Shown: positions 6,371 through 63,897 of the stretch, one piece after another
How positions within the stretch are numbered: position 1 is the stretch's first letter
How the letters are laid out: each line of letters opens with the position of its first letter
DNA from: an uncultured Verrucomicrobia subdivision 3 bacterium
Lineage (GTDB): Bacteria > Verrucomicrobiota > Verrucomicrobiia > Limisphaerales > UBA11358
NCBI GenBank assembly: GCA_903875465.1
Contig: CAIQWB010000038.1
Location: 1-64,000, forward strand
Direction of reading: 5' to 3'
DNA length: 64,000 bases
Program-made: the position numbers and the translations under genes
The notes under the pieces: generated by a model
Told to the model about the DNA's origin: nothing
The model's database searches: none
The model's input: only the letters and a program-made list of their open reading frames with translations

Positions 6371-7591
6371 TCAGTATCCCTTTCGATGGATGTATATGTT
6401 TTGCATCAAACCCAGTGCGATCAACGAGACGAGCACTGAAGATCCGCCGTAAGACAACAGCGGCAGTGGCACTCCCGTAACGGGCATGATGCGAATATTC
6501 ATGCCGATATTGATAAACACATGGCTGAACAGGAGTGTCACCACCCCGACGGCCACTAATTTACCCAGGCGATCACGTGCCTGGCCGGCGGTTCTCAAGC
6601 CAGTGAAGAGAACCACCGCATACAGCGCGAGCACCGTCACGCTGCCAACGAATCCCTCCTCCTCGGCAATGACAGAGAAGATGAAATCGTTGTGTGCCAC
6701 GGCCCGCGGCAAATAGCCCAGAGCATTCTGGGTTCCCTGCCGCCAGCCTTTCCCCGTGAGCCCCCCCGAGCCGACGGAAATCAACGCCTGCCGAACGTTA
6801 TAAGCATCGTTCAACTCTTTTTGCCGCAAGCGCTGCAACTCCGCGGGCGTGGCATTCCGCGGAGCAAAATGGGTGTAATCGCAGCCAAAATAAATGGCGA
6901 GCCGGTCGCGCTGGTAAGGCTGCATGGGCACCGTCCACCAGCCCACCGGCAGGTAGAAAATGTCCGCGACAAAAAGCGTGGCGAGGATGCCCACCAGGCC
7001 CACCAACCGGACCAGATAACGCCGGGGGGTGCCGGCCACCAACATCATGACCAGTCCCGTGGGGAGCAAAACCAGGGCCGAGCCCAGATCGGGTTCTTTG
7101 AGGATTAACACAAAGGGCAGAAACAACAGGCCCATGCCTTTCCAGAAAATGCGGGGTTGCCGGAGTTCTTCCAGCGGGCGGCTCAGAAAATTGGCGGCGG
7201 CCATAATAAAGGCCAGTTTCGCAAACTCGCTGGGTTGAAATTGAAAAAATTTCAGGTCAATCCAGCGACGTGCCCCCCAACCGTGGGTGCTGCCGATATG
7301 CGGGATCAAGACGGCCACCAGACTGAGGATGGTCACCCAATAGGCCACATAGGACCAGCGGGCGAGCGCCATATAATCCACCAGACACAGGACGCCGGCG
7401 GCGGCCAGGCCCATGAGGTACCAGAGCACCTGGTGCACCCAGCTTTGATTGTACCACGGCAAGGCCACGGCGGAGGGCGTGACCATGGTGGCACTGTAAA
7501 CAAAGGCCACGCTCACGAGCAGCAAGCCGCCGAGCGCCAGCAATTGCAGGCGGTCGATCCGGGAAGGATGGTCGTGAGATTGAAACAGCAT
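6371..7591 (-). CDS. rodA: RodA, peptidoglycan glycosyltransferase of the elongasome
   Basis: The 406-residue SEDS-family polytopic membrane protein polymerises lipid II into glycan strands together with PBP2 during lateral growth. About ten hydrophobic helices are visible. Family hallmarks are 'KEPDLGSALVLLPTG', 'WRQGTQNALGYLPRAVAHNDFIFSVIAEE' (a split motif read across about 270-300) and the end 'PLPLLSYGGSSVLVSLIALG'. The region 'GWGARRWIDLKFFQFQPSEFAKLA' (in two parts) distinguishes RodA/FtsW. It follows mrdA by 7 bp on the same strand, the classic mrdA-rodA pair, which favours RodA over FtsW. Confidence 0.95.
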   Translation of the reverse strand: MLFQSHDHPSRIDRLQLLALGGLLLVSVAFVYSATMVTPSAVALPWYNQSWVHQVLWYLMGLAAAGVLCLVDYMALARWSYVAYWVTILSLVAVLIPHIGSTHGWGARRWIDLKFFQFQPSEFAKLAFIMAAANFLSRPLEELRQPRIFWKGMGLLFLPFVLILKEPDLGSALVLLPTGLVMMLVAGTPRRYLVRLVGLVGILATLFVADIFYLPVGWWTVPMQPYQRDRLAIYFGCDYTHFAPRNATPAELQRLRQKELNDAYNVRQALISVGSGGLTGKGWRQGTQNALGYLPRAVAHNDFIFSVIAEEEGFVGSVTVLALYAVVLFTGLRTAGQARDRLGKLVAVGVVTLLFSHVFINIGMNIRIMPVTGVPLPLLSYGGSSVLVSLIALGLMQNIYIHRKGY

Positions 7592-56500: not shown

Positions 56501-56814
56501 CTGCTTTTGCCTTTATATTGGGGGTTGTCCCCCTGATGCTGGCGCATGGTTCAGGTGCGCAATCCCGCCAGGTCATGGGCACGGCGGTTTTCTTTGGCAT
56601 GCTGGTCGCCACGGTCTTGGGAGTTTTCATTATTCCCGCCCTCTACGTAATTGTCGAGCGGATCAGCGGAAACGCCGGCCAGGTTCCCGGCCCGGCGAAC
56701 CTTCCCGCCCCGTCCACCGTGCCATCGCCCACCTCACCCGCGCCCACCTCACCCGCGCCCACCTCACCCGCGCCCACCTCACCCGCGCCCGGCAACCATG
56801 GAGGTGCCGCGTGA
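53575..56814 (+). CDS. RND efflux pump, inner-membrane permease (AcrB/HAE1 type)
   Basis: The 1079-residue permease has the AcrB layout: N-terminal helix after '[17 protein letters not shown]', large periplasmic loops and twelve membrane helices. Proton-relay acids D408 and D409 are in '[14 protein letters not shown]' (helix 4); '[17 protein letters not shown]' and '[16 protein letters not shown]' are further signatures. It exports hydrophobic compounds, antibiotics or lipids using the proton gradient; substrate range cannot be read. The C-terminus is extended by a Pro/Thr/Ser/Ala tail encoded by a 15-bp tandem repeat (about 56728-56790). Its TGA overlaps the next gene's GTG. Confidence 0.95.
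56728..56790 (+). repeat. 15-bp minisatellite within the RND permease tail
   Basis: Four consecutive copies of ACCTCACCCGCGCCC encode (TSPAP)n at the C-terminus of the permease, after a diverged leading copy. As 15 is a multiple of three, changes in copy number would alter tail length without a frameshift. Confidence 0.9.
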
Positions 56815-59143: not shown

Positions 59144-60418
59144 GTGTCCAAAGCCATGAGCAAATCCCCCAAATTGGCGGCCGCAACGGCCAGCAATATT
59201 TTCCAATTCACGCTGTCTGGCTTGCTGTTGTTCAGTCTGACCTTGATTGGGAGTGCCGCCTTTATCACCCATCTGGTGGGGGAAAAGCCGCGCCGATCTT
59301 TGGAATCGAGCTTTGCGGTGAATCCCAACGACAAGTCCCAGACCGTCCACGCCGGCCCTTGGGGTGATTTAGTGGTTCGCAATATTCAGTTGGAGCGACC
59401 GGCCGAGTATTTGAATGATGAGGTCAAAGCGCCTGAACCAGAAACCTGGACCTTTGCCGGCCAAACGACCGAAAGCCTCAAAACCCTCCTGCTGCAAGGT
59501 GGCCTCACCGCCGATCAGGCCGCCAACGCCATGGCCCAAGCCAGGCTGGCCGGGACCAAACGAATTGTCTTAATGCCTTCCGCCGCCTTTTTGACCGGCT
59601 TGGATGCGCCAGTAAGGTCCAAACTATACCGTTCGTTGGCAGGGCACGGGGTGAATTTGTATGTGGATTACCCCTATATCTTCCCTGGCAACAGTTTGGA
59701 ATCCATTTATGCTTCGCCACGCCTCCCATCTGATGATGTGGCCTTGCTCAAAACGCTCGTCTACGCCAATGGTAGTGCCCGGCAGTTATCCGATTATCAA
59801 CTGCTGCTGTGCCAAATTCCCACCTATGAACGCCGGGTAGCTTTGGCTCAAGTTTTATCCCGCCAATCGGCGGTATTGGCCGCTCTATCCATCAAACCCG
59901 AAACTGATATCGATAAAATTGCGGCGTATTGGGGTTCGGTGCCTTATGTGCGTTTTACCGATATCCGCCCCTTGCTGGAATCGCTCAAGGCGTTGCCGGA
60001 AGGCGGCACTCTGAGCCTGTTTTACCTGTTGCCCAAGTTTGCCCGCGACCGGCTATACACCTTTCCCCTGCCGCCCCAATCCGGCGAACCCACCATGGAC
60101 TGCCACTGGACAACCTTTAATTTCAGCAATGAAACGCCCAACAACCGTTTCAATGACGCGACCTACGCGGTGCAATACATCCGCCAAAATTTCTACCAGA
60201 TCGCCGCGCCCTCACAGTATGGCGACATCCTGCTGCTCATGAACGACCAGCAGGAAATCAAACATTCCGCCGTGTTTCTGGCCGACGATCTGGTATTCAC
60301 GAAAAACGGCAATAATTACCGGCAACCATGGATGATCATGCATATCCCTGATTTGATTGCCACCTACCCGGCTGAACCGTCAATGCATGCGGTTTATCTC
60401 CGGGGAAAACAGAATTAA
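59144..60418 (+). CDS. Membrane-anchored protein with a putative NlpC/P60-like C-terminal domain
   Basis: The 424-residue protein has one transmembrane helix (about 22-45), a predicted extracytoplasmic region of unknown fold (about 60-300) and a C-terminal domain. The latter has 'TMDCHWTTFNF' (D319, C320), then 'SQYGDILLLMND' and 'IKHSAVFLADDLVFTKNG' (H374). The order Asp-Cys, Gly-Asp-hydrophobic strand, His-strand matches NlpC/P60 cysteine hydrolases (DCSGF ... GDLVFF ... HVGIYLG). From memory similar 'DCHW' proteins recur as hypotheticals in Verrucomicrobia. The fold assignment is an inference from motif order; substrate unknown. The start could also be the second Met at residue 5. Confidence 0.65.
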   Translation: MSKAMSKSPKLAAATASNIFQFTLSGLLLFSLTLIGSAAFITHLVGEKPRRSLESSFAVNPNDKSQTVHAGPWGDLVVRNIQLERPAEYLNDEVKAPEPETWTFAGQTTESLKTLLLQGGLTADQAANAMAQARLAGTKRIVLMPSAAFLTGLDAPVRSKLYRSLAGHGVNLYVDYPYIFPGNSLESIYASPRLPSDDVALLKTLVYANGSARQLSDYQLLLCQIPTYERRVALAQVLSRQSAVLAALSIKPETDIDKIAAYWGSVPYVRFTDIRPLLESLKALPEGGTLSLFYLLPKFARDRLYTFPLPPQSGEPTMDCHWTTFNFSNETPNNRFNDATYAVQYIRQNFYQIAAPSQYGDILLLMNDQQEIKHSAVFLADDLVFTKNGNNYRQPWMIMHIPDLIATYPAEPSMHAVYLRGKQN

Positions 60419-61961: not shown

Positions 61962-62912
61962 ATGAAATACTCCATGGGTTCACGGGGCAAAAGGGCGGGT
62001 GCTTTCACATTAGCGGGGCTGGCATTGCTTGCCAGTTGCTGATTGCCGCCAGCGGCCACGGCAGCCGGACCGGTGGCGATTGACTTGCGCTCGGCAGCCC
62101 CCTTCACGATTCTGGCAGGTTCCACAACGACCACGACCGGCGGGGGCATCATTAATGGGAATGTGGGGTTGTCACCCTTGGGTTCCCAAGGCATCCCGCC
62201 GGGCCAGATCAACGGGACTAGTTATAATGGCGGCCCGATTGCCGCCCAGGCCCAGCTTGATTTGAACTCGGCGATCATCGCCTCCAGTCCGGCGCAATTG
62301 CCGGGGGGAATGAATGTGGGGGCAGAACTCGGTGCGCAAAACCTGGCGGGCGGGGTTTATGCCTCACCCTCCGGAGCGTTTGGCATCACAGCGGCGGACT
62401 TGACGCTACACGGCGGACCGAAAGATGTCTGGGTATTCCAAATGGCGAGCACACTCACGGTGGGGGTGGGTCGCCGGGTAGTCCTGACCGGGGGGGCGCA
62501 GTCTCGCAATGTGTTTTGGCAAGTGGGCAGTTCGGCGACGCTGGAAACCTCCTGCGTGTTTGTGGGCACAGTCATGGCCTATGCCTCCATCACGATCAAT
62601 GCGAGTTCCACGCTGGATGGCCGGGCGCTGGCCCAGAATGGTGCGGTGACTTATAATGGCTCGGTCGGTACGCTGCCCCTACCGGCAGCCCCGCTATTCA
62701 CCCAGATCATCCAAGCAGGAACGAATACCGCAACCCTGACGATCGCCAGTTCACCTTATTTCCCGCTGACGCTGCAGAGCAGCCCGGATTTACTGACTTG
62801 GGCGGACATTGCCTCTAACACTCCGGTGGCCACGCCCAGCAGGTTCACCAATACCGCTGCCACCGTTGGGACCAAGCGGTTCTACCGGGCCTTTCTAACC
62901 CCGTATCCTTGA
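61962..62912 (+). pseudogene. Ice-binding-like (DUF3494) lipoprotein gene interrupted by an in-frame TGA
   Basis: An ATG at 61962 opens 26 codons forming a lipoprotein signal peptide (start MKYSMGSRGKRAGAF, ending LALLASC). The next codon is TGA (62040-62042). The same frame then continues uninterrupted for 289 codons (from a TTG at 62043) as a DUF3494 beta-helix: 'FTILAGSTTTTTGGGIINGN', 'VFQMASTLTVGVG', 'NVFWQVGSSATLETSCVFVG'. A C-terminal module 'FPLTLQSSPDLLTWADIAS' with 'KRFYRAFL' follows. DUF3494 proteins bind ice or mediate adhesion. Either a point mutation inactivated export, the stop is read through, or this is a sequencing error. Translation from TTG would give an unexported protein and has no Shine-Dalgarno. 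Confidence 0.75.
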
Positions 62913-62919
62913 ACTCTGA

Positions 62920-63897
62920 TCAATGAGCGGATGTTTGCGGCCGCCAGTCATCCGCCCCGCCCAAAACCCGGTTAAGCGTAATGGCTGAGGCTTGTTGGGG
63001 GGTCAGTTGTTTGGCCCAGGCCACGCGGTTGGCGGGGCTGGCACCGGGTCCGGTGCTGTTATACTCAGCGTAGCGAGCGGTCTGGTGGGTCTCGGGCTTT
63101 TTCCAATCGTTCCAGCCTTCGGGCCGTACGACTTCGGACATTTCGGAATTCAGGAAAATGGTGCCGGCATAAATCCGCCAGGGCCGGCCCAAATAGGTCC
63201 GGGTGGCGGGGGTTTCACCGATGATCTGGCAATGGGAAAATACATAGCCATAAGGAACATCGTTGGGCGTGGAGGCCGCTGTCAGATAGCCTCCGGCACC
63301 ACGCGAGCAGATCAGGCATTTTTCAAACCAGGACGTGGCTGCGCCAAAAATAAAATCCACATGGCCGCAAATATAACAGTGGTCGAAATACTGGCGTCCG
63401 CGATTCACCAGAATGGTGTCCTGCCACCCGATGAACCGGCAATCGGAAAAAATGGCCCGGTCGCCATCCACCCGGATGGCCAGAGCCTGCCCGACGGGCC
63501 CAGCGGAGTTTTCAAAGGTCAGGTGCTCAGCGGTGAAATCATCGGCATCAATGGTGGCGGTGGGGGTGTGGAACGTGCCAATGGGTTTGCCATCCAAATT
63601 GGTCATGCTGGCATAAAGGCCAAAGACGACTACGGTGTTGGTGGCATTCTCCCCCACAAGGTGAAAGAACCTCTTCTCCCGCTGCACATAGATGAGTTCG
63701 CGGTAGGTGCCGGGTTTGAGATGGATGATGACGGGATTGCCAGCGGTGCCCGAAGGAACGGACATGATGGCCTCTTGAACCGTTTTAAAGGAACCAGTTC
63801 CATCGGCCGCGACGGTTATATGAGTTTGGGCGACTGCTATTTGAGTCAGCAAGAACAGTCCCAGTAAACAGCAGCGACAACAGTTGGCAAGGTTCAT
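62920..63897 (-). CDS. Secreted pectinesterase (CE8)
   Basis: The 325-residue protein has a signal peptide (about 1-23, with a Cys-rich n-region 'NCCRCC') and a right-handed beta-helix. Active-site motifs of pectin methylesterases are intact: Q137 in 'GPVGQALAIRVDGDRA', Q159-D160 in 'GWQDTIL', D181 in 'GHVDFIFGAA', and R238/W240 in 'YLGRPW'. It removes methyl esters from homogalacturonan, preparing pectin for lyases or polygalacturonases, none of which is in the window. It is convergent with the ice-binding-like gene, 7 bp apart. Confidence 0.93.
   Translation of the reverse strand: MNLANCCRCCLLGLFLLTQIAVAQTHITVAADGTGSFKTVQEAIMSVPSGTAGNPVIIHLKPGTYRELIYVQREKRFFHLVGENATNTVVVFGLYASMTNLDGKPIGTFHTPTATIDADDFTAEHLTFENSAGPVGQALAIRVDGDRAIFSDCRFIGWQDTILVNRGRQYFDHCYICGHVDFIFGAATSWFEKCLICSRGAGGYLTAASTPNDVPYGYVFSHCQIIGETPATRTYLGRPWRIYAGTIFLNSEMSEVVRPEGWNDWKKPETHQTARYAEYNSTGPGASPANRVAWAKQLTPQQASAITLNRVLGGADDWRPQTSAH

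Follow-up and report, generated by a model that had tools for sequence, protein, structure and literature searches.

The closest described systems are the NlpC/P60 endopeptidases (PF00877, MEROPS C40), which include Spr/MepS, YkfC and 4xcm. In YkfC, gamma-D-Glu is held with Asp237, Ser239 and Tyr226 (PMC2954226). Across the cluster of NlpC/P60, CHAP and amidase domains, the aspartate of the strand-1 'GD' signature meets an arginine of strand 5 (PMC10318531). The superfamily also includes acyltransferases and lipid-related enzymes, and LRAT and the YiiX relatives are circularly permuted (PMC3142127). Little literature was found on NlpC/P60 enzymes in Verrucomicrobiota, and no published description of the family reported here, which carries a DCHW motif, was found in the literature searched.

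The gene is located on contig CAIQWB010000038.1 of assembly GCA_903875465.1, from an uncultured Verrucomicrobia subdivision 3 bacterium; the stretch of 64,000 nt that was analysed is referred to as the window. An open reading frame at 59144-60418 on the + strand encodes 424 amino acids from a GTG, and the reverse strand of the same interval is broken by stops in the frame read. In alignments, homologues start at the position matching the ATG at 59156, and the protein therefore probably has 420 amino acids. Residues are numbered from this ATG, and C316 and H370 correspond to C320 and H374 of the original prediction, which had read the frame as a membrane-anchored NlpC/P60-like protein. The elements it had pointed out, DCHW (D319-C320-H321-W322 in its numbering), a GDILLL strand and H374 in KHSAVFLADDLVF, are all present in the translation, and they follow one another in the claimed NlpC/P60 order of Cys, GD strand and His. 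The following features were assigned:

59156..60418, + strand: DCHW-family NlpC/P60-like gene, 420 aa (open reading frame and alignment of homologue N-termini)
59213..59281, + strand: predicted N-terminal transmembrane helix or uncleaved signal anchor, residues 20-42 of 420 (helix in the model; hydropathy of this protein and most homologues)
59324..59887, + strand: conserved N-terminal region, residues 57-244, matching no family (alignments)
59888..60415, + strand: predicted C-terminal NlpC/P60-like (papain-like) domain, residues 245-420 (AlphaFold2 domain model and fold searches)
60098..60109, + strand: DCHW motif with the predicted nucleophile C316 (Cys invariant in 46/46 homologues)
60221..60226, + strand: GD motif of the first core strand, D357 invariant (alignments; 'GD' signature of PMC10318531)
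60263..60265, + strand: predicted general base H370 in the second core strand (invariant in 46/46; model)
60299..60307, + strand: T382-K383-N384 at the end of the third strand (alignment and model; position 382 is Thr in 45 and Ser in 1)
60401..60403, + strand: R416 in the last strand, invariant, the expected partner of the GD aspartate (alignments and model; Asp-Arg pair of PMC10318531)

The membrane anchor that had been proposed was recovered as the hydrophobic helix at residues 20-42, and hydropathy analysis found such a helix, or a signal-peptide-like start, in most family members, which suggests that the domain probably lies outside the cytoplasm. On the basis of this anchor or signal sequence, an extracytoplasmic location may also be expected for the protein as a whole, and the region at residues 57-244 is probably extracytoplasmic as well. 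In this region GxWG (67-70) is invariant and W98 nearly invariant, and it has no match to a known family, as had been noted at the outset.

About 60 homologues were gathered, from Verrucomicrobiota genomes and one phage contig. Fifteen close homologues (51-68% identity) belong to Limisphaerales / Verrucomicrobia subdivision 3 genomes, and a diverse set aligned in 42 rows is 23-36% identical. Whole-genome searches found a match in 33 of the 387 genomes of the phylum, and the family is present in 22 of the 49 genomes of the window's own genus, with two or more copies in some genomes. The family is widespread but patchy, an accessory one in the phylum. One genome carries tandem gene duplicates (L005:5001-6266 and 6498-7016), the second of which is truncated by the contig end, and other genomes likewise carry 2-4 matches to the family. 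The member on the phage contig (L066:2896-4191, with L067:11636-12928 from that one contig; IMG/VR 3300035701_008955; 31% identical) adjoins a portal protein gene and is encoded on the other strand from its neighbours. It resembles cargo carried in the head module of a phage or prophage. No homologue was found in an annotated phage collection with this phage-contig protein as query, or in a plasmid collection with the window protein as query.

Conservation was counted in the 46 homologues of the first set that cover the sites, together with the 42-row diverse alignment. Ten residues were invariant in 46/46: C316, N322, F323, D357, H370, A376, G385, P391, W392 and R416; D315, H317, W318, T382 and K383 were nearly invariant. 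The invariance of C316 and H370 holds down to 23-30% identity, which is more than expected by chance, so the Cys and His named in the original prediction pass the comparison of homologues. Position 317 is occupied by His or Asn alone and position 382 by Thr or Ser alone in the 46 homologues; among the 42 diverse members, Asp precedes the Cys in 40, and the residue after the Cys is His in 39 and Asn in 3. An upstream Tyr301 is kept in 33 of the 42, its equivalence to the classical Tyr being unproven. The motifs of the family can be written as DCHWTxxNF, GD, HSxVYxADDIVFTKNG, PW and R. D357 lies just before the modelled strand 358-362 and R416 in the modelled last strand, 411-417; in the model, these two residues would fit the structural pair of the GD aspartate and its arginine. 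T382 is the best candidate for a third, polar catalytic residue.

Searches of Pfam, NCBIfam, PHROGs, PADLOC and PDB sequences with the window protein gave nothing significant, and its relatives and a profile, run against Pfam, NCBIfam and PDB, did no better. Pfam NLPC_P60 was matched by 4 of the 42 members (best E 0.0097) and was the only family matched by more than one of them. Since this family had been named in advance by the original prediction, a best E of 0.0097 across 24736 models would be far less chance-like than it looks. The best of the members scanned individually (L023) reached 16 bits, below the 23-bit gathering threshold of PF00877, which the window protein does not match; this match starts at the residue before or at DCHW, at profile position 14, and spans GD and H in the correct register. 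When the family was compared by hhalign with 16 NlpC/P60 domains from this phylum, the GD and H positions of the two profiles were paired with each other; the score, 22.4, is above that of every one of 60 column shuffles (maximum 20.3) and still weak.

The fold was modelled with AlphaFold2 from shallow alignments, for the whole protein (16 sequences, mean pLDDT 73.8) and for residues 245-420 (17 sequences, mean pLDDT 78.3). In both models a short helix lies at the Cys or directly behind it. A longer helix comes next, then the strands that carry GD, His and T-K, one more helix and a final strand bearing the Arg; within the domain, both models are least confident in the loop immediately ahead of the Cys. 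In Foldseek searches against the PDB, the top match was the NlpC/P60 peptidase 4xcm_B, for the whole model (E 6.2e-3, probability 0.99) as well as for the domain (E 3.4e-3, probability 0.93), and most later matches were NlpC/P60, DUF1460 or related peptidoglycan enzymes. The top match in the viral set BFVD was also an NlpC/P60 protein (E 3.1e-3). The best VIA matches had Z 6.6 for the whole model (8tw1, rmsd 3.6, 124 aligned) and Z 6.3 for the domain (8er5_B, rmsd 3.5, 94 aligned), and the 50 rows of the domain list were papain-like as far as names tell, and mostly NlpC/P60-like; NlpC/P60, CHAP, DUF1460 and C39-type enzymes filled the lists of both models. These scores are modest, with Foldseek E above 1e-3 and VIA Z below 8, where the tool warns of a possible common arrangement. 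Taken alone they would not persuade; their agreement with the sequence evidence does. The fold search that the original prediction had proposed as a check did not contradict it.

All similarity scores, of sequence and of fold, lie below conventional thresholds, and the protein itself matches no family, so it could be argued that the order of motifs is coincidental and that the domain is not papain-like. We consider this very unlikely, because the dyad is invariant, both residues of the Asp-Arg pair are kept, the Pfam matches are in register and the fold searches with two models agree. The C-terminal domain is very probably papain-like and of NlpC/P60 type, as judged from models and sequence, and the fold class and the dyad are highly probable, though not proven. 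These results support that the proteins form a new divergent family within the NlpC/P60 superfamily, outside PF00877 proper. This superfamily of enzymes of the cell wall thereby gains a family that is absent from Pfam, NCBIfam, PHROGs and PADLOC.

The only departures from Cys and His conservation were found in three paralogous partner copies. In three genera, a divergent copy is placed in tandem with an active one (frames from 503 and 1570 in L088, and from 554 and 1668 in L089) or is fused to it in a single 885-aa frame (from 515 in L090). Alignment of the divergent copies shows Phe or Ile at the Cys position and Tyr or Phe at the His position, with GD and the last Arg retained, while the copies adjoining or fused to them keep Cys and His. 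The joint loss of the two residues supports that they form a catalytic dyad. The same copies, together with the existence of non-catalytic NlpC/P60 domains such as RipD, which is among the fold matches, could also be taken to mean that the domain is a papain-like binding module recognising peptidoglycan or a partner protein; this is very unlikely, since the window protein and 46/46 of the first-set homologues keep both residues, which pure binding would not need. The catalytic prediction is testable by one point mutant. More speculatively, and rather improbably, the family may represent an envelope enzyme centred on Verrucomicrobiota whose bond specificity is unlike that of other NlpC/P60 enzymes and which, in some lineages, is paired with a tandem or fused pseudoenzyme (L088, L089, L090) that regulates the active copy or shapes its substrate site. 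Such natural active and inactive pairs could show how these enzymes are controlled.

In the mechanism that we propose, the protein would be an exported, membrane-anchored cysteine hydrolase made up of an N-terminal helix, a conserved region and an NlpC/P60-superfamily domain. The nucleophile would be C316, where a helix begins, and the base H370, in the second strand, with T382 in the third strand as the probable orienting residue and D357 and R416 as the structural pair typical of NlpC/P60-like domains. While tethered to the membrane, the enzyme would hydrolyse, by a papain-like mechanism, a stem-peptide amide of peptidoglycan or another envelope amide much like it. A membrane-anchored NlpC/P60-type cysteine hydrolase, most likely of such an amide, is the likely overall explanation; peptidoglycan as the substrate, proposed by analogy with the superfamily, is moderately probable. 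The residues of classical specificity are only partly kept, so the bond that would be cut may not be the classical gamma-D-Glu-diamino acid bond.

The main competitor, clearly less likely, keeps the same fold and dyad and assigns them to a non-peptidoglycan substrate, such as a protein side chain, a lipid or lipoamino acid, or an exported glycopeptide, with the protein acting as hydrolase or acyltransferase. It is suggested by the change of the S1 Ser to His or Asn, by the family-specific Trp and NF pair and by the acyl and lipid enzymes of the superfamily (PMC3142127). However, the lipid and acyl members LRAT and YiiX are permuted, with His before Cys, whereas here the Cys precedes the His, which makes an acyltransferase less likely. 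Of the two activities offered by the original prediction, the hydrolase is therefore retained and the acyltransferase disfavoured; its interpretation as an NlpC/P60-like hydrolase is supported, and the description of a lineage-specific envelope hydrolase is fitting.

Across the 30 chromosomal loci and the phage contig whose surroundings were compared, no gene neighbour is shared throughout the phylum that would link the family to peptidoglycan. Genes resembling asd and ExbB/ExbD, named by eye, reappear among close relatives only. The neighbours in the window encode an AcrB-type pump, an outer-membrane efflux protein, a Transgly_assoc membrane protein, and DUF309, epimerase-like, Ice_binding-like and pectinesterase proteins. 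The pump has a C-terminal tail of repeated Pro-Thr-Ser-Pro-Ala, encoded by a short tandem repeat at 56740-56800, and the Ice_binding-like gene (62043-62912) adjoins the pectinesterase gene (62920-63897).

Comparison with the NlpC/P60 endopeptidases showed a common order of Cys, GD strand and His strand, the Asp before the Cys, the Asp-Arg pair, the predicted fold and a probable export to the envelope. The family differs from them in having DCHW or DCNW instead of DCSG, in lacking a Y-x-x-GG or Y-x-W-GG segment ahead of the Cys, in a candidate third residue that is Thr and not His, and in about 240 extra N-terminal residues with no known domain match. At the classical S1 site, the Ser after the Cys is replaced by His or Asn, and conservation of the next residue, Trp, and of the NF pair is peculiar to this family. 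With respect to YkfC, the Asp is kept, Ser239 corresponds to His or Asn, and the counterpart of Tyr226 is not confidently assignable. DUF1460 amidases (4q5k, 4h4j, 2im9) are among the best fold matches of the domain (4q5k, Foldseek E 1.4e-2, VIA Z 6.1), with no Pfam or NCBIfam match to DUF1460 in any of the 42 members. LRAT, YaeF and YiiX share the superfamily and a possible acyl or lipid chemistry, but they are permuted, and a permuted LRAT/YiiX type was rejected because C316 precedes H370 in the sequence. CHAP and Tae/Tse-type amidases (8tw1, 4hz9, 4f4m) share the fold class predicted here, without a sequence match; in Tae3 the third residue is a hydroxyl residue, Ser (PMC10318531), as Thr382 might be here.
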